Positions 55,664 to 64,000 of a DNA stretch of 64,000 nucleotides are shown in pieces (position 1 is the first letter of the stretch; every line of letters begins with the position of its first letter). Position numbers and translations under genes: made by a program. Below the pieces are notes generated by a model that was not told the DNA's origin, made no database searches, and saw nothing but the letters and a program-made list of their open reading frames with translations. The stretch covers positions 170,544 to 234,543 of the forward strand of contig NZ_JAPMLM010000072.1 of assembly GCF_026410195.1 (NCBI RefSeq). Direction: 5' to 3'. The stretch is from Xanthomarina sp. F2636L (GTDB lineage Bacteria; Bacteroidota; Bacteroidia; Flavobacteriales; Flavobacteriaceae).

Positions 55664-56545
55664 TTACTGATTATACCCAAAACGCTTTAACTGTCTTTGG
55701 TCGTTTCTCCAGTTTTTATTCACTTTTACATAAAGTTCCAAATGGACTTGCTTACCAAAAAATTTCTCTAAATCCTTTCTAGCTTCTACTCCAACACGTT
55801 TTAAAGCGGACCCTTTATGACCAATAATGATGCCTTTTTGGGTTTCTCTTTCCACCATAATTACAGAACGCATTCTAATAATTTCATCTTCTTCAAAAAA
55901 TTCTTCTGTATCTATTTCAACAGCATAAGGAATCTCCTTTTTATAATGCATTAAAATTTTTTCTCTTATAGTTTCGTTTACAAAAAAACGTTCTGGCTTA
56001 TCTGTTAATTGATCTTTTGGATAGAAAGGTGGCGATTCGGGAAGCAATTCTATGATACGATTAAAAACCTCTTTTACCTGAAATCCTTCCAAAGCCGAAA
56101 TAGCAAATATTTCTGCATTTGGCACTTTTACAGCCCAACTTTGCACTTGTTCTTCAAGCTGTTCTTGATCGGATTTATCGATTTTATTTAGCAGCAATAA
56201 AACAGGGATTTTTGAACTGGTAATCTTATTAAAAAAGGTTTCATCTTTTAATTCTTTTTCACCAATTTCAACCATATAGATTAGCACATCAGCATCTTCA
56301 AAAGCCGATTTTACAAAACCCATCATGGATTCTTGTAGCTCGTAGGCTGGCTTTATAATTCCTGGTGTATCAGACAAAATCATTTGAAAATCTTCCCCAT
56401 TAACAATACCTAGAATTCTATGGCGTGTTGTTTGTGCTTTCGAAGTAATAATAGATAACTTCTCACCCACAAACGCATTCATTAATGTCGATTTTCCAAC
56501 GTTTGGATTTCCTATAATATTTACAAAACCTGCTTTATGCATCAT
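55664..56545 (-). CDS. era: GTPase Era
   Basis: 293 residues. G domain with GNPNVGKST, DTPG and NKID, then a KH domain with IIGHKGSALKRVGVEARKDLEKFF that binds the 3' end of 16S rRNA during 30S assembly. The start may be the second Met. Confidence 0.97.
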   Translation of the reverse strand: MMHKAGFVNIIGNPNVGKSTLMNAFVGEKLSIITSKAQTTRHRILGIVNGEDFQMILSDTPGIIKPAYELQESMMGFVKSAFEDADVLIYMVEIGEKELKDETFFNKITSSKIPVLLLLNKIDKSDQEQLEEQVQSWAVKVPNAEIFAISALEGFQVKEVFNRIIELLPESPPFYPKDQLTDKPERFFVNETIREKILMHYKKEIPYAVEIDTEEFFEEDEIIRMRSVIMVERETQKGIIIGHKGSALKRVGVEARKDLEKFFGKQVHLELYVKVNKNWRNDQRQLKRFGYNQ

Positions 56546-56560
56546 AATATTTTAATACGG

Positions 56561-56568
56561 CAAAGATA
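56561..56568 (-). promoter_or_regulatory. -7 box of era
   Basis: CAAAGATA reads TATCTTTG on the - strand, about 16 bp before the start. Confidence 0.5.
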
Positions 56569-56752
56569 GTTTTAATAATTTTAAACCTAACATTCTCTAA
56601 ATAAGATATGATAAAATGTTTTTTTAAGCATTATTATTACAAGCATAAGTGATTTTAAGATTGGTAACTTTTCAACTTATTAAACATTTTGTAGTTATTT
56701 TTTTAATACTTTAGTGCTATAATTTAAATCTGTTTTAAAGCATCTTTTTTAA

Positions 56753-57439
56753 GTGATAAACAAATCATTTTTTATAGTTTTATTAATAGCATGTATTTTT
56801 ATCATGCCTACGTATAGTTTAGCTCAAGATGTTAAAATTGACTCAACAGATTTTAGCGATATGACTCCCTTTAGAAAAGGCAGATGGCTTACAGGACTTA
56901 CAGGATCTATAGGCTCAGGATCTTTTGAAAACACAAAAACCGATAACAAATCTATTAGTAATTGGTACAGAATAGAAATTGGTACAGGAAAATTTTTAAT
57001 AGACCGTTTAAATATAGGTTTATCTGCAAATATGGAACGAAGTAATATAGAAAATGAAAATTCTGAAAATACTTCTGAAACCTTTTTTGTTGGACCAAAA
57101 GGAACTTATTTTTTATCCCCAAGTCATGTGGGGTCTGTTTTTTTTAGTTTATCGCCTGGATATGCTCTCTACAGAGATACTGTGGGAGACTTAGTAGATG
57201 GTGTATATATTGAAAACATTAACGGTGGTGGTGGTTTTGGGTTTCTTTCAACCTTTGGTTTTGCTTATGTCATTCAAGATCGCGTAACTTTTGAACTTGG
57301 TTTAAACTACAATGTATATTGGTTAGATTTAAAACAGGAAACAAATATTAACGATAGCACAAAAAACGTGACTTACGAACTGAGTAATTTATCCTTTTCA
57401 TTCGGATTTAAAATACTGTTAGACTCGAAACCTCTTTAA
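56753..57439 (+). CDS. Outer-membrane beta-barrel protein, small
   Basis: 228 residues, read from a GTG start (MINKSFFIVLL). Signal peptide ending SLAQ. The body alternates amphipathic strands with GFGFLSTFGFAYVIQDRVTFELGLNYN and ends with an outer-membrane-type strand (NLSFSFGFKI). Probably an 8-10-strand barrel. The stop overlaps the next start (TAATG), so it is coupled to the Omp85-like gene. Confidence 0.82.
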   Translation: MINKSFFIVLLIACIFIMPTYSLAQDVKIDSTDFSDMTPFRKGRWLTGLTGSIGSGSFENTKTDNKSISNWYRIEIGTGKFLIDRLNIGLSANMERSNIENENSENTSETFFVGPKGTYFLSPSHVGSVFFSLSPGYALYRDTVGDLVDGVYIENINGGGGFGFLSTFGFAYVIQDRVTFELGLNYNVYWLDLKQETNINDSTKNVTYELSNLSFSFGFKILLDSKPL

Positions 57440-58551
57440 TGAAAAAACTACTTTTCTTCATATTGATTTGTTTTTTATTTAGCCCTTCTGGTTTCGGTCA
57501 GAATAAGGACGTTGTTATTAAGTCCGATACAATCAATAAAAACAAGAAATTACAATTTGTAGCTATTCCCATTGTGTTTTATACGCCTGAAACCAGTTTT
57601 GGTTTTGGTGCTGGAGCTCAAGTTTTTTTATTGAAACAGAAAAATATTTATAATGATCGGGTATCCAATATTTTTGTAGATTTTATAATGACATCGAATA
57701 AACAGTTTATAATTGATGTAATTCCACAAATATATTTTGGTAAAGGCGATTATTTTCTAGATATGAATTTTAAGTGGAAAATATTTCCTAATAATTTCTG
57801 GGGAATTGGGAATACCACTCCAAACAGTAATGAGGAGTCTTACGACATGACTTCACAGATATTAAAGGTTAGTTTTTTAAAAAGATTACCTCCAGCCCTA
57901 AATTTTGGCTTTGAATATATTTATGAAAATCATGATGTTACAAAGGTTGAAGAAGGAGGTCTTTTTACAACTGGAGATATTACTGGTAGTGATGGCGCTG
58001 TAATTAGTGGCTTTGGGGTTATCTTTAATTTAGACTCTCGAGATAATGTAGGCTCGCCACTTTCAGGGCATTTACTTAAAATGAACGCACAATTTTCTAG
58101 TGAACTTTTTGGTGCAACTGAAAACTATAATAAGTTTATTACCGATTTACGTACTTATCAAAAACTAGGAGAAAAGAGTATTATTGCTCTACAATTATAC
58201 TACGAAGGCAATTTTGGCAATCCGCCTTTTCAAGGTTTAGCCTGGTATGGAGGAGGAAATCGAGCTCGTGGATATTATCAAGGTCGTTTTATAGATAAAA
58301 GCTTATATCTTTTTCAAGCAGAATACAGATACCGTTTTAATCCTAGATGGGCCTTAGCTGGCTTTGGATTATTTGGAAAAGTAGCACACGACCAAAAGCA
58401 ACTTTTTAGTTTAAACGATTTAAAACCAAGTGCTGGAGGTGGACTTAGGTTTAAACTTTTAAAAACACAAGATACCTGGGTTCGTTTAGATGCCGGAATT
58501 GGTGTGGATGGCAGTAGCGGTATTTACTTTGGAATAAATGAGGCATTTTAA
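57439..58551 (+). CDS. Omp85/BamA-like surface antigen protein
   Basis: 370 residues with a signal peptide to GFGQ. No POTRA domains fit in this length. The C-terminal barrel has the family strand GGGNRARGYYQGRFIDK (the VRGF-like motif) and LFQAEYRYRFNPRWALAGFGLFG. It is the POTRA-less bacterial surface antigen group, with unknown substrate. Translationally coupled to the small barrel gene. Confidence 0.85.
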   Translation: MKKLLFFILICFLFSPSGFGQNKDVVIKSDTINKNKKLQFVAIPIVFYTPETSFGFGAGAQVFLLKQKNIYNDRVSNIFVDFIMTSNKQFIIDVIPQIYFGKGDYFLDMNFKWKIFPNNFWGIGNTTPNSNEESYDMTSQILKVSFLKRLPPALNFGFEYIYENHDVTKVEEGGLFTTGDITGSDGAVISGFGVIFNLDSRDNVGSPLSGHLLKMNAQFSSELFGATENYNKFITDLRTYQKLGEKSIIALQLYYEGNFGNPPFQGLAWYGGGNRARGYYQGRFIDKSLYLFQAEYRYRFNPRWALAGFGLFGKVAHDQKQLFSLNDLKPSAGGGLRFKLLKTQDTWVRLDAGIGVDGSSGIYFGINEAF

Positions 58552-58852
58552 TACCAGTATATAAAACTACTTCTGGTGATTTAAACTTTAATAATTTTAG
58601 CACACTTTTTAACTTATAAATATCTCTTACTCTTATATCTGTATGGCACTCTACTGGTTTTATCTTTATAGATTATATTAATTATACGAGCTAAGTAAAA
58701 TCAATAAGTCAGAAAAACTCAATTAGAGGCTCCTTCGAACATATATTTATAAACCCTAAAGCAAGTGTTTTATATAGCCTTTTAATTTATTAAATTAGTA
58801 ACTTCAATCAACTGAAAGTAATTGAGAACATCTATTTTCACAAAAAACATAT
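58552..58852. other. 301-bp spacer, nothing recognised
   Basis: A/T-rich, with no frame, strong hairpin or repeat that I can support. Confidence 0.6.
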
Positions 58853-59451: not shown

Positions 59452-60021
59452 ATGATTAATATGAAAACCAAGTATATAACATTTGTTTTATTACTAGCAA
59501 TTATGCCATTATTTGCTCAGATGTTACCTTCTAGTCAGAATCCCAAATATACTTCAAGGATTAATCCTAAGTTTAATTCTAATATAAATCCAAAATACAA
59601 CTCTAAAATAAATCCTAAGTACACTTCTAGCTTAAACCCTAAATATAATTCAAGTTTAAATCCCAATTATTCGTCAAATATTAATCCTAACTACACATCA
59701 CATCTAAATCCAAAATACAACTCTAAAATCAATCCAAAATATAGGGCTAATTTAGATCCAAGATATGCTACATGGGAAGGAAAATACTTATTTAATGAGA
59801 TGGCAGAACCATTTGGAATTCTTATTTATGCCAACTCGAATATCTATCTATTTTATGATATGGATGGCGAATGGATAGGGTATTTTGTTCGCGCAAAAAC
59901 CAATTACAATTTATTTACGCTTGATGGAGACTGGACGGGAAAATATTTATGCTCAGACTCCGAAAGTGGTTATAACCTCTTTGAGGAAGGTGGTGAATGG
60001 ACTGAAAGTTATGTTAAGTAA
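59452..60021 (+). CDS. Secreted protein with NPKYNSxI octapeptide repeats
   Basis: 189 residues (or 186 from the internal ATG at 59461). Signal peptide ending LFAQ. Residues about 27-108 are ten octapeptides of the type NPKYNSKI or NPKYTSSL, in 24-bp steps, ending DPRYATW. A C-terminal part then has three DGEW/EGGEW hairpins (about 110-185). The repeat looks like a regular solenoid or extended rod; no function is known. Confidence 0.85.
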   Translation: MINMKTKYITFVLLLAIMPLFAQMLPSSQNPKYTSRINPKFNSNINPKYNSKINPKYTSSLNPKYNSSLNPNYSSNINPNYTSHLNPKYNSKINPKYRANLDPRYATWEGKYLFNEMAEPFGILIYANSNIYLFYDMDGEWIGYFVRAKTNYNLFTLDGDWTGKYLCSDSESGYNLFEEGGEWTESYVK

Positions 60022-61320: not shown

Positions 61321-62529
61321 ATGAAACCAATTATTACACTAAAGCCTCTTTATTACAAAGACAAAAGCCAGATAGCCATTGGATTTTCATTTAATGAAAA
61401 GACAAAATCTTATATAAAAAAATTCCAAGGCGTTAATTGGAGCAAAACCCATAGTACATATTACGTAGCGCACAATCAAAACACCTTACATGAGTTATTT
61501 ACATATTTAAGAAAAGGCGAGTTCTATATAGATTATAAATCTTTAAAATATGTTAGAAAAGAGCATATTACAACCATTTCCAAGGTAAAATCTCCAGATA
61601 AGCTAACCTTATTTCAAGCATTATCTAAAGAACAGAAAACCATATTAAAAGAGTATGTAGCATATTTACGTGGAAAGCGATTAAGCGAAAGCACGGTATC
61701 TTCTTATGGATTTTTTATTCTTCGTTTTTTAAATCATCATAAAACCATAGACAAATCACATTGGAACACTCGAAGCATCGAAACTTTTATAGAACAAGTA
61801 ATTAGCAAAGAGTATTATAGTATTAGTAGTCATAGGCAATGTGTAAGTGCGTTTAAGCATTTTACAGTTTTGTGCAATTTAGAAAATTTTGATGCCAGTA
61901 ATTTTGAACGACCTAAGAAAAGTAATTATTTACCTATTGTTTTATCTAAGGAAGCAATTATAGATTTAATGCAGGTAACTAAAAATTTAAAGCACAGAAC
62001 CATCATAGGATTACTTTATTCTGGAGGTTTGCGAATTGGTGAATTATTAAATTTAAAGCTAAACGATTTGGATTTAGATAGAAGTCAAATACATATTAAA
62101 CAAGCTAAAGGTCGTAAAGATCGTGTTGTTGGAATGAGTGAAGCTATAAAACCCTTACTGTATAATTATGTACACACTTACAGACCAGAAAAGTTTTTAA
62201 TTGAAGGTCGAGATGGAGATAAGTATTCAGCTAGTAGTATTCGGTTTTTCTTAAAACAAGCTTGCAAATTAGCTGGAATAACGAAGCCTGTAACACCTCA
62301 TACTTTAAGGCATAGTTATGCAACGCATATGCTAGAAAATGGGATTGATTTACGGTATATTCAAGCTTTATTAGGGCATGTAAAACCAGAAACTACCATG
62401 ATTTACACCCATGTAGCCAAAAAGGATATTTTAAAAATTAGAAACCCATTGGATGTCATGATTGAGGAGATGCAACTAAAAGACAAAGACAACAAAAAAG
62501 TTTTGATATCCCGAAATTTTAAAGACTAA
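61321..62529 (+). CDS. Tyrosine recombinase, integron-integrase-like
   Basis: 402 residues. Core-binding SAM-like domain about 108-195 and catalytic domain about 205-380. The active residues are visible: Arg in YSGGLRIGEL, Lys in KGRKDRV, HTLRH (His and Arg), His in LLGH and the Tyr nucleophile in TTMIYTHV. The segment AGITKPVTPHTLRHSYATHMLENGIDLR resembles IntI closely, yet the ~20-residue IntI-specific insertion after motif KDRV is absent. A ~100-residue N-terminal extension of the type seen in Bacteroidota integrases is present. It points into the cassette array and ends 28 bp before the attI-like site. It is probably the array's integrase. Confidence 0.9.
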   Translation: MKPIITLKPLYYKDKSQIAIGFSFNEKTKSYIKKFQGVNWSKTHSTYYVAHNQNTLHELFTYLRKGEFYIDYKSLKYVRKEHITTISKVKSPDKLTLFQALSKEQKTILKEYVAYLRGKRLSESTVSSYGFFILRFLNHHKTIDKSHWNTRSIETFIEQVISKEYYSISSHRQCVSAFKHFTVLCNLENFDASNFERPKKSNYLPIVLSKEAIIDLMQVTKNLKHRTIIGLLYSGGLRIGELLNLKLNDLDLDRSQIHIKQAKGRKDRVVGMSEAIKPLLYNYVHTYRPEKFLIEGRDGDKYSASSIRFFLKQACKLAGITKPVTPHTLRHSYATHMLENGIDLRYIQALLGHVKPETTMIYTHVAKKDILKIRNPLDVMIEEMQLKDKDNKKVLISRNFKD

Positions 62530-62534
62530 ACAGC

Positions 62535-62542
62535 TATATTTG
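62535..62542 (+). promoter_or_regulatory. -7 box in front of the attI-like site (Pc-like)
   Basis: TATATTTG fits TAnnTTTG; the predicted start is close to 62549, just before the recombination point at 62557. No good -33 is seen. Confidence 0.4.
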
Positions 62543-62549
62543 ATTTTAT

Positions 62550-62566
62550 ATAACACGTTGTGCACT
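62550..62566 (+). other. attI-like recombination site
   Basis: AACACGTTGT (62552-62561) is identical to the last ten bases of the second attC-like site (63991-64000), and TATAACAC precedes it. The proposed exchange point is after G62557, where the first cassette begins TTGTGCACT. Confidence 0.7.
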
Positions 62567-62602
62567 ATTTGAGAAAACCGTTACATCGAATTGAAAACAG
62601 TG

Positions 62603-63022
62603 ATGAAATTAACAAATGAACAGTTTACAGAAGTTGCTTTTATTTTCGAAAAAGAAAACGGAAATTCTCATTCGGATTTTGAAAAAAGTGTAATTGCGGA
62701 ATCAAAACTGACCGAATACAAACCGTCTGAATTAGAACAGATAATTGTCAACGGACTGAACTCTGGAATATATAAAACCGAGGAAGAGCGAGTTAGCGGA
62801 TATTGGAGTTTATCAAAAATCGGAAATCGGAATTTGATAACGGAATATAAAAAGTGGTTGCGAACGGAATTGGAAAACGAAAATGGAATTGCAGTTTTTC
62901 AAATATTAATCGGACTTGACCGACTTGATGAACCTGTGTTTAATGAAAAACGGACTGGACAAGCTGTAAACGAAACGGAATTGAATTTACGTGATGCAAA
63001 AAAGTATCTAAATGAAAAATAA
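62603..63022 (+). CDS. Cassette 1 gene, hypothetical protein
   Basis: 139 residues from ATG 62603; a TTG (62591) or GTG (62600) start is also possible. Helical, with SGYWSLSKIGNRNLITEYKKWLRTELE and FQILIGLDRLDEPVFNE. No signal peptide and no domain recognised; the C-terminal half resembles a short helical repeat. It begins about 45 bp after the cassette boundary and stops 7 bp before the R''-like box, the tight packing typical of integron cassettes. Its base use (many CGG, GAACGG, CGGAATTG) differs from that of the host genes. Confidence 0.75.
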   Translation: MKLTNEQFTEVAFIFEKENGNSHSDFEKSVIAESKLTEYKPSELEQIIVNGLNSGIYKTEEERVSGYWSLSKIGNRNLITEYKKWLRTELENENGIAVFQILIGLDRLDEPVFNEKRTGQAVNETELNLRDAKKYLNEK

Positions 63023-63026
63023 AAAC

Positions 63027-63164
63027 AGTGCACAACAATGTATAACCGCAATTACGGCGGATTCGACTACGTCCGAATCCACTCGGAATTGCTAACGTCT
63101 GTGCTAAACCCAAAAATAACGCATATAAACCCGTAACTGACGGTTATACGAGACCGTTGTAAGC
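63027..63164 (+). other. attC-like site 1, end of cassette 1
   Basis: Opens AGTGCACAAC, closes GTTGTAAGC. The outer stem is ACAAC-3-GTATAACCG (63032-63048) against CGGTTATAC-6-GTTGT (63141-63160); a second stem pairs CCG..TTACGG with CCGTAA..CGG. The 5' arm spacer is 3 nt shorter. The exchange point is proposed after G63156. Confidence 0.8.
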
Positions 63165-63179
63165 AATTAAAGGAAACCC

Positions 63180-63866
63180 GTGAAAAACAGAATATTCTCA
63201 TTAATTATTATTGTTTTTATTTCCAATTCTTGTGGAATATTTAAAACGCATCACAAGGATAAACTTATTGATTTTGAAAACAATCAGGTACCGAAAAACA
63301 CTTTAAAACTGAATGGTTACTATTTTGCGGAATTGGAACGTGAAGCCAATAATTCTGACAATACCCAAGAAACAAAAATAAAATATCTATCTGCTTTTTT
63401 TATTTACGAAGACGGCTTTATAGTTAATATTCGTGGAATTGACGGACTTACGAATTATTACTGTGCGGAAAATGAAACTTATGAGAATACCTATGAACGA
63501 GCGCATAAAGTAATTGAATTAATGCTTGAGTCTCAAAACTCTGAAGACAAAAGAACCAAGCGAATTTGCGGATTTGAACCAAACGATATTGGTAATAAAG
63601 GTTTAGCTAAAGTTAATAATGATAGTATTAGAATACAGTTTTACAGCATTGAAATGCAAAAACCTGGAAAAGATTCTTTTAATTCTGCTTATTTATACGA
63701 AATCAATGGAGTGATTAAATCCGACTCAAGCTTTGTGATAAATAGTGAGACAGAATTTAGAACTAATAAAAGAACAACTGAAAATACTTTGTTCCGATTT
63801 AGACAAACTAAACAGAAACCGAATATTGAAAATTACTTTAAAAAGAATAATAACCGATTTAAATAA
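63180..63866 (+). CDS. Cassette 2 gene, lipoprotein of unknown function
   Basis: 228 residues read from a GTG start 23 bp after the cassette boundary. Lipobox SNSC (near residue 18) and a beta-rich body (NTLKLNGYYFAELE, YLSAFFIYEDGFIVNIRGIDG), cysteines at two later positions, and a basic tail. It stops 2 bp before the R''-like box. No family recognised; lipoproteins of this kind are frequent cassette cargo. Confidence 0.75.
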   Translation: MKNRIFSLIIIVFISNSCGIFKTHHKDKLIDFENNQVPKNTLKLNGYYFAELEREANNSDNTQETKIKYLSAFFIYEDGFIVNIRGIDGLTNYYCAENETYENTYERAHKVIELMLESQNSEDKRTKRICGFEPNDIGNKGLAKVNNDSIRIQFYSIEMQKPGKDSFNSAYLYEINGVIKSDSSFVINSETEFRTNKRTTENTLFRFRQTKQKPNIENYFKKNNNRFK

Positions 63867-63867
63867 C

Positions 63868-64000
63868 TGCTTACAACAACGTGTATAATTCATTGCTAGT
63901 ACTCGCCTACTTACGAAAATCCTCGCGGTTTTTCTATTCGGTTTGTATTTGCTAAATTAGTTGCTCAAACACGCAACGAAATCATACACAAACACGTTGT
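63868..64000 (+). other. attC-like site 2, end of cassette 2
   Basis: Opens TGCTTACAAC and ends GTTGT at the window edge. Outer stem ACAAC-5-GTATAATT (63873-63890) against AATCATAC-8-GTTGT (63980-64000), then ATTGC against GCAA. The 5' arm spacer is again 3 nt shorter. The next cassette starts at 63997. Confidence 0.78.

Follow-up and report, generated by a model that had tools for sequence, protein, structure and literature searches.

Integrons, both class 1 and sedentary chromosomal, are described by an integrase (IntI), its attI site and the attC sites of their cassettes. The I2 helix of IntI is reported to dock extrahelical bases and is stated to enable single-strand recombination, and Xer proteins lack it (PMC7790495). 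The additional domain is called necessary in an archaeal integron study (PMC9668308), and the insertion is described elsewhere as essential yet not fully conserved in an integron-like subgroup (PMC8138268). One survey, which used the additional domain to pick out integrases, lists intI for the Bacteroidetes/Chlorobi group (PMC2426708), and in a survey of 2022 one complete integron is named for Bacteroidetes proper, that of Salinibacter ruber M1, found with standard IntI and attC models (IntegronFinder 2.0; PMC9024848). Here we compare with these systems a locus at the end of a 64,000-nucleotide stretch of Xanthomarina sp. F2636L (Flavobacteriaceae; contig NZ_JAPMLM010000072.1, positions 170,544 to 234,543; hereafter the window), in which a tyrosine recombinase gene is followed by an array of cassette-like units.

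We regard this locus, with a probability of roughly 0.8, as the head of an integron-like cassette system, consisting of a recombinase, a likely attI and cassettes with hairpin-forming 3' sites that the recombinase would move on the folded bottom strand. An earlier note on this DNA had read it as a functional Bacteroidota-type integron. Judged by sequence comparison, the array and the cassette structure in that claim hold up; the recombinase lacks the IntI-specific domain, so the system is better called integron-like than a proven member of the IntI kind. The comparisons described below bear out the anatomy, the complementary ends, the covarying stem, the one-strand wobbles and the unit-wise mobility, and they make catalysis by the recombinase at the head of the array likely.

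The last 2.7 kb of the window hold the gene for a 402-amino-acid (aa) recombinase, a GTT at 62557 and two units, each built of a GTT, an open reading frame (ORF), an AAC and its own 3' site; all features given here lie on the forward strand. Cassette 1 spans 62557..63155 and cassette 2 spans 63156..63995 (62558-63156 and 63157-63996 with the integron cut G^TT). Unit 1 opens with GTTGTGCACTATTT at 62557 and closes with AAACAGTGCACAAC at 63036, and unit 2 opens with GTTGTAAGCAATTA at 63156 and closes with TAACTGCTTACAAC at 63877. The earlier note, whose coordinates and letters proved right on rechecking, had described paired ends of 10 bases. The pairing is real, but the arm is longer, namely 10 bp, a nearly fixed mismatch and then 3 bp. 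In both window units the opening, R'-like arm (62557..62570 and 63156..63169) and the closing, R''-like arm (63023..63036 and 63864..63877) share 13 pairs over 14 positions, position 11 being the one that fails to pair. Inside the window, the rarity of such pairs is modest. Pairs of 10-base GTT and AAC ends 250-2500 nt apart numbered 3 in the last 4 kb (mean 0.39 and maximum 3 in 300 shuffles) and 13 in the whole window (mean 7.0 and maximum 17 in 100 shuffles), and the case therefore rests on evidence from outside it.

In the rest of the genome, this evidence was extensive. Among the 45 units delimited there, 42 paired their own ends at 6-7 of the 7 variable bases, and the mean over all 45 was 6.56, versus 2.74 with the ends of other units and 2.83 across a site; none of 10,000 shuffles reached the total of own-end pairing. 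The three failures comprise a unit with N letters (contig C73), a unit spanning a short site that was initially missed (C66) and one unexplained unit (C53). In ten related genomes, 145 of 155 units paired at 5 or more of the 7 bases, compared with 11% of random pairs and 21% of pairs across a site. All of these 145 units have A at position 11 of their start, and the opposite base is C in 132, G in 12 and A in one, so that none of them forms a top-strand pair at this position; in the Xanthomarina genome it pairs in 2 of 45. Thus, R'' and R' are complementary within one cassette, as in integrons, in both sets of units, and the claim that the pairing holds within units and not across them was borne out.

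The attC-like sites of the two window cassettes run from AAC to GTT, at 63034..63158 (125 nt) and 63875..63998 (124 nt). They matched, with 72.2 and 129.1 bits, a covariance model (R1) built from 44 sites of the same genome, the first window site being one of the 44; this first site also stands in our site alignments A1 and A2. A sequence hidden Markov model failed to detect the first site, which R1 detected, and a search of 40 kb of arrays against Rfam gave no match. The sites are predicted to form, on the bottom strand, a stem of 20 pairs in which 95.3% of the alignment cells are paired, as opposed to 32-51% in slid controls. Changes on both sides were found at 11 stem pairs, in 94 cells versus a mean of 27 after shuffling. 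Three stem positions hold G.T in 127, 117 and 128 of 128 distinct sites of the relatives. Read on the bottom strand, the relatives' sites, in an alignment that was fitted to the model and leans towards pairing, contain 419 G.T cells versus 3 A.C cells; the 44 sites of the Xanthomarina genome contain 139 versus 10. Since the wobbles occur on the bottom strand alone, this strand is probably the substrate. RNAalifold found only 9 pairs on the top strand and more on the bottom strand, because A.C becomes G.T there.

Folding of single sites gave a divided result on the bottom-strand hairpin that the earlier note had proposed to fold. When the two ends of a cassette were joined as in a circle, the site was more stable folded on the bottom strand in 39 of 39 cases (39 of 45 units gave a usable site). 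The two linear window sites folded unremarkably, with z-scores of -2.74 and -0.77 on the bottom strand and -2.59 and -0.26 on the top strand; the hairpin therefore rests on the circular form and on covariation. Within the modelled stem, which leaves out the apical part of the site, there is no bulge that all sites share: a base fills column 18 in 7 of 44, and column 23 is empty opposite a base in 11 of 44. The core sequence also departs from that of integrons. GTTRRRY fits 7 and RYYYAAC fits 9 of 193 units (7 of 200 were left out for N letters or other ends), and the earlier note's assignment to a different site family agrees with the 186 units that do not fit GTTRRRY.

Repeated cassettes allowed the unit of movement to be delimited. 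We compared 93 pairs of near-identical whole units, which fall into 10 clusters of 34 units, nine of the clusters lying within genome G021, a single-contig assembly from the host's family with two arrays of 49 and 55 delimited units. An identity of 90% or more was reached by the following site in 92 of 92 pairs, by the preceding site in 4 of 93, by the next unit in 3 of 92 and by the previous unit in 3 of 93; random sites reach it in 1 of 150. Without a cassette present in 13 copies, the following site was common to 14 of 14 pairs and the preceding site to 0 of 15. Thus, the site that travels with a unit is the 3' one and not the 5' one. The 13 near-identical copies are those of a 438-bp cassette in the G021 arrays (L083-L089), two of them without a 35-aa ORF and perhaps non-coding.

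The same pattern was seen between species. The Xanthomarina genome and G005, which belongs to another species, share two cassettes, one of 915 bp with 99.9% identity and one of 394 bp with 100%. The sequence that follows these cassettes is 99.2% identical over 120 bases, and the neighbouring units are at background (58-64%). A gene that we take to be era is 86% identical between the two genomes. Whole-unit matches (75% of length, 70% identity) were found for 7 of 45 units in six genomes whose arrays were partly fetched. Overall, the comparative evidence indicates that cassettes move as units and are exchanged between species; cassette content differs between species and cassettes recur as exact units, contrary to the lack of change that would have counted against the earlier note.

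We inspected 15 loci of the recombinase, 12 of which have a testable downstream site; in G012 the contig ends too soon. A unit start fitting the end of the first unit at 6-7 of 7 bases lies 27-141 bp past the recombinase in 11 of the 12 loci, which by sequence places a candidate attI beside the enzyme. In the window, the attI-like site is at 62531..62563, where TATATTTGATTTTATATAACAC precedes a GTT that starts 27 bp past the recombinase stop. The upstream sequence is similar in G004, G031 and G003, and more distantly in G021, G013, G033 and G032. Loci of the window type carry TATATTTGA..TTATATAAC or alike before the first GTT, and those headed by a second type of recombinase, found on contig C71, carry a different, palindromic sequence. 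The C71 recombinase is 39% identical to that of the window, and two types head two arrays in one genome. Genome G007 has a C71-type recombinase beside an era-linked gene block (window 56000-58553; L119 102-2647), the same block that stands beside the window's own type, and one chromosomal locus thus seems to have held both types. Four named related loci were also scanned for sites after the recombinase; these were strong in L103 and L105, with one weak match in each of the other two. Across 60 genomes of relatives, a recombinase match was present in 37 of the 40 with sites and in 1 of the 20 without.

The recombinase gene (61321..62529) points towards the cassettes and matches Pfam Phage_integrase at 2.1e-40. 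The catalytic residues, which we assume from the family to be R238, K263, H327, R330, H353 and Y362, are invariant in an alignment of 45 sequences (A6). Among 23 homologues, some of which are not known to head arrays, 21 have 57 aa between the KDR and HxLRH motifs (one has 58, one is unmeasured), compared with 99 in 5 of 5 IntI proteins, all of them close to IntI1. Against IntI4 (2a3v), the protein has 27 residues where IntI4 has 70. An AlphaFold model (mean predicted local distance difference test 81.1, predicted template modelling score 0.52, low confidence in 355-371) shows no helix where I2 would lie, between residues 287 and 304; an integrase with the IntI-specific additional domain was therefore not found. 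The protein starts with an N-terminal extension of about 77 residues (61321..61551), delimited by alignment, structure model and family searches. This domain is predicted to fold as beta-beta-alpha-beta-beta-alpha-beta, is present in all 23 aligned homologues and is missing in IntI1 and in an XerD-like protein of the same genome. No Pfam family matched it over the cut-off and no PDB entry did so convincingly (best E 0.047); the domain might read the hairpin.

Family assignment of the recombinase pointed in two directions. By sequence, the closest solved structures are XerA and an archaeal XerC-like protein, followed by IntI4; in Foldseek, XerA leads by E-value and IntI4 has the higher template modelling (TM) score (0.57-0.66 versus 0.54-0.56). 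The two recombinases scored 190.2 and 195.7 bits against the integron integrase model TIGR02249, under its curated cut-off of 265. Against NF040815 (recomb_XerA_Arch, cut-off 220 bits), the window protein scored 209.9 and the C71 protein 233.7; this family is named 'site-specific tyrosine recombinase/integron integrase', which is also the NCBI name of several homologues. Scores against the XerC and XerD equivalogs were 168-191 bits, under cut-offs of 330-335. The tail, NPLD or SPLD, resembles the SPLD of IntI1. A tree that includes IntI proteins near IntI1 and no XerA set the IntI group apart at 100/100, the other group being weak (68/43), and did not settle whether our proteins fall inside or outside IntI. 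The genome also holds other tyrosine recombinase genes, one of them XerD-like (L033). In G032, the reading frame of the recombinase is broken.

The array was expected in the earlier note to extend past the window. The window ends where its contig (C70) ends, and further units were indeed found on other contigs: the genome gave 35 DNA matches to the array segment and 59 matches to R1 at E 0.01, on contigs C49, C51, C53, C54, C57, C60, C66, C70, C71 and C73. The palindromes were not scattered but formed part of cassettes that lie beside recombinases of this family. Positions 63155-64000 of the window are identical over 846 bases, exactly cassette 2, to the start of C49 (L036 1-846), which means that the cassette is present twice or that the assembled contigs overlap here. 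The covariance search that had been suggested for Bacteroidota genomes matched 40 of 60 relatives at E 1e-3. With 8 candidates scored per genome and E 1e-8, it matched 69 genomes in a set of 395 from the order and 49 in a set of 395 from the phylum, the Xanthomarina genome counted in. Other classes of the phylum have strong matches too, at G574 C15:168480-168603 (134.7 bits) and in other genomes of family f38. A longer variant of the site, of about 185-190 nt, occurs in several genomes (L037 14636-14823, L041 3787-3976 and many G021 sites). We also observed a 1439-bp insertion sequence with two ORFs, presumably IS3-like (L040 6132-7570, L041 1-1439 and 11045-12483, L044 11230-12668, L039 12128-13566), which splits three or more attC-like sites, each time at the same point close to the centre of the site (model position 54-59 of 125), and is also found at contig ends.

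Cassette genes mostly share one direction. In 142 units of the Xanthomarina genome and G021, the longest ORF runs in the array direction in 118 and opposite in 24 (6 more units have no 35-aa ORF), giving the array of mostly one-gene, same-direction cassettes that characterizes integrons. Cassette 1 encodes a 143-aa protein (62591..63022) and cassette 2, with a GTG start, a 228-aa protein (63180..63866); family searches with these two proteins gave no match. From 138 located longest ORFs, 115 of at least about 60 aa were scanned and 23 shorter ones dropped. Among the matches listed (the first 25 per library), the array families were a WapI-like immunity family (three proteins), transposase (three), short-chain dehydrogenase (two), and HamA, PtuA, HerA and a cytosine methylase (one each), so that the cassettes include predicted defence-like genes. 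Outside the array, window 59452-60021 encodes a predicted 189-aa protein with many NPKYNS/NPKYTS-type repeats. Apart from the gene and about 70 bp, the left flank of the window is not shared by the flanks fetched for G002, G003, G004, G005, G013 and G031.

A related set of sites is known from a virus. A cluster of attC sites lacking an integrase (CALIN), with reported GTTRRRY junctions, has been described in the Polaribacter phage P12002L; in that study, IntI1 recombined one of two tested sites from the bottom strand and gave 0 recombinants from the top strand (PMC9892861). R1 matched this phage seven times at E 1.2e-4 or better, two pairs of matches flanking methyltransferase genes, and 0 of 8 cores of four sites, read by eye, fit GTTRRRY. 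These matches are likely the published attC sites, and the site family has therefore probably been met before as attC, without the recombinase described here. The phage is virulent and carries several sites of the family (L128 5910-14816, L127 14503-14624), which makes it a possible cassette vehicle.

These observations suggest how such a system might work. A cassette circle would join both unit ends in the order R''-spacer-L''-loop-L'-spacer-R', and its bottom strand would fold into a near-continuous double-stranded target of arm, spacer and arm, the arms meeting through the hairpin. A recombinase without the I2 helix could bind this target much as a Xer protein binds dif, and would cut within GTT. 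By weakening the top-strand hairpin, the fixed wobbles would set strand and orientation, replacing the extrahelical bases read by I2, and insertion at attI would place new cassettes directly behind the recombinase gene. The modelled stem has no common extrahelical base and the enzyme no I2, a consistent pair of absences whose linkage we infer. Whether the arrays are a second natural kind of integron, widespread in Flavobacteriaceae, with an Xer-like recombinase without I2 and strand choice by fixed G.T wobbles, be it an independent invention or a survivor from before I2, we consider evenly balanced.

Several observations weigh against the integron-like system that we prefer. The co-occurrence of sites and recombinase among genomes is confounded by kinship, and the 38 recombinase matches include short ones (about 280 aa) that may represent other tyrosine recombinases. 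In G026, 35 sites stand without a recombinase at E 1e-40, and G049 shows the reverse; the loci of G049 and G055 have weak site matches alone (best 32.7 bits), and G005 has no fitting unit start beside its recombinase. The hairpin is not the best fold of the window's linear sites, whose arms are not joined, and 78 of the 93 duplicate pairs represent one cassette family, with nine of the ten clusters in one genome. Moreover, the incomplete conservation of the insertion stated in PMC8138268 means that the lack of I2 may be less unusual than we take it to be, and the recombination of a P12002L site by IntI1 (PMC9892861) means that ordinary IntI may use such sites too. The last two points also speak for an ordinary integron, with an IntI relative that lacks the extra domain and with attC sites that have drifted in sequence, as do the TIGR02249 scores, the C71 protein's passing of NF040815, the NCBI names, the SPLD-like tail, and the presence of IntI4 among the nearest folds with a TM-score above that of XerA. 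We nevertheless find this unlikely, given that the short motif spacing recurs across the homologues and is no loss in a single copy, that I2 is the helix credited with enabling single-strand recombination (PMC7790495), that few unit starts fit GTTRRRY, and that the IntI group stands apart in the tree, weak as the other group is.

Two further explanations were considered. The enzyme could act in the manner of Xer proteins on double-stranded sites, with the hairpins serving as terminators or in RNA folding alone; its sequence is nearest XerA, an enzyme of double-stranded sites that also ranks first by fold E-value, and isolated linear sites fold unremarkably. This is quite improbable, because the pairing arms are about 125 nt apart in the circle and meet through the hairpin alone, a double-stranded target does not need one-strand G.T wobbles, and the sense strand of an RNA would carry A.C mismatches in place of wobbles. 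Alternatively, the host XerC/XerD or an IntI encoded elsewhere could move the cassettes, the recombinase at the head being incidental. Fitting with this, the array contigs C49, C57, C60 and C73 are fragments without a recombinase, G026 has its sites and no detected enzyme, and a TIGR02249 search of the 60 relatives at E 1e-50 gave no match, nor did its positive control, so that an absence of IntI is not established. We judge it improbable as well in view of the fitting first-cassette start close behind the recombinase in nearly all testable loci, the type-specific sequence before that start, and the two recombinase types that head two arrays in the Xanthomarina genome.

We found no description of these arrays among the papers listed by the literature searches, which excluded bioRxiv and most subscription journals, and the word 'wobble' occurs 0 times in each of the papers checked for it. 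Since surveys can select integrons by the IntI-specific domain, arrays of this kind may be passed over. If the recombinase does work without I2, it would offer a natural system in which to test the accepted view of how recombination of single-stranded cassettes originated. The arrays also constitute a gene reservoir, with defence-like genes and exchange between species.

Compared with known systems, the recombinase resembles XerA, XerC and XerD, which act on dif, in its catalytic core, and XerA is its nearest solved sequence; it differs from them in heading cassette arrays and in scoring under the XerC and XerD cut-offs. The cluster of phage P12002L differs from the bacterial arrays in having no described recombinase and in genes that lie mostly opposite to the orientation of the sites. 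Salinibacter ruber M1 offers the parallel of an integron in a member of the same phylum. Unlike integrons, the present system has a recombinase without the IntI-specific domain, with an N-terminal extension and pointing towards the array; its core is not GTTRRRY, its arm is 10+3 bp with a nearly fixed mismatch, and its modelled stem carries bottom-strand G.T wobbles at fixed positions and no bulge common to all sites. It nonetheless shares with integrons the arrays of dozens of mostly one-direction cassettes, each with an inverted-repeat end site, the complementary ends within a cassette, the site beside the recombinase, and the unit-wise duplication and transfer.

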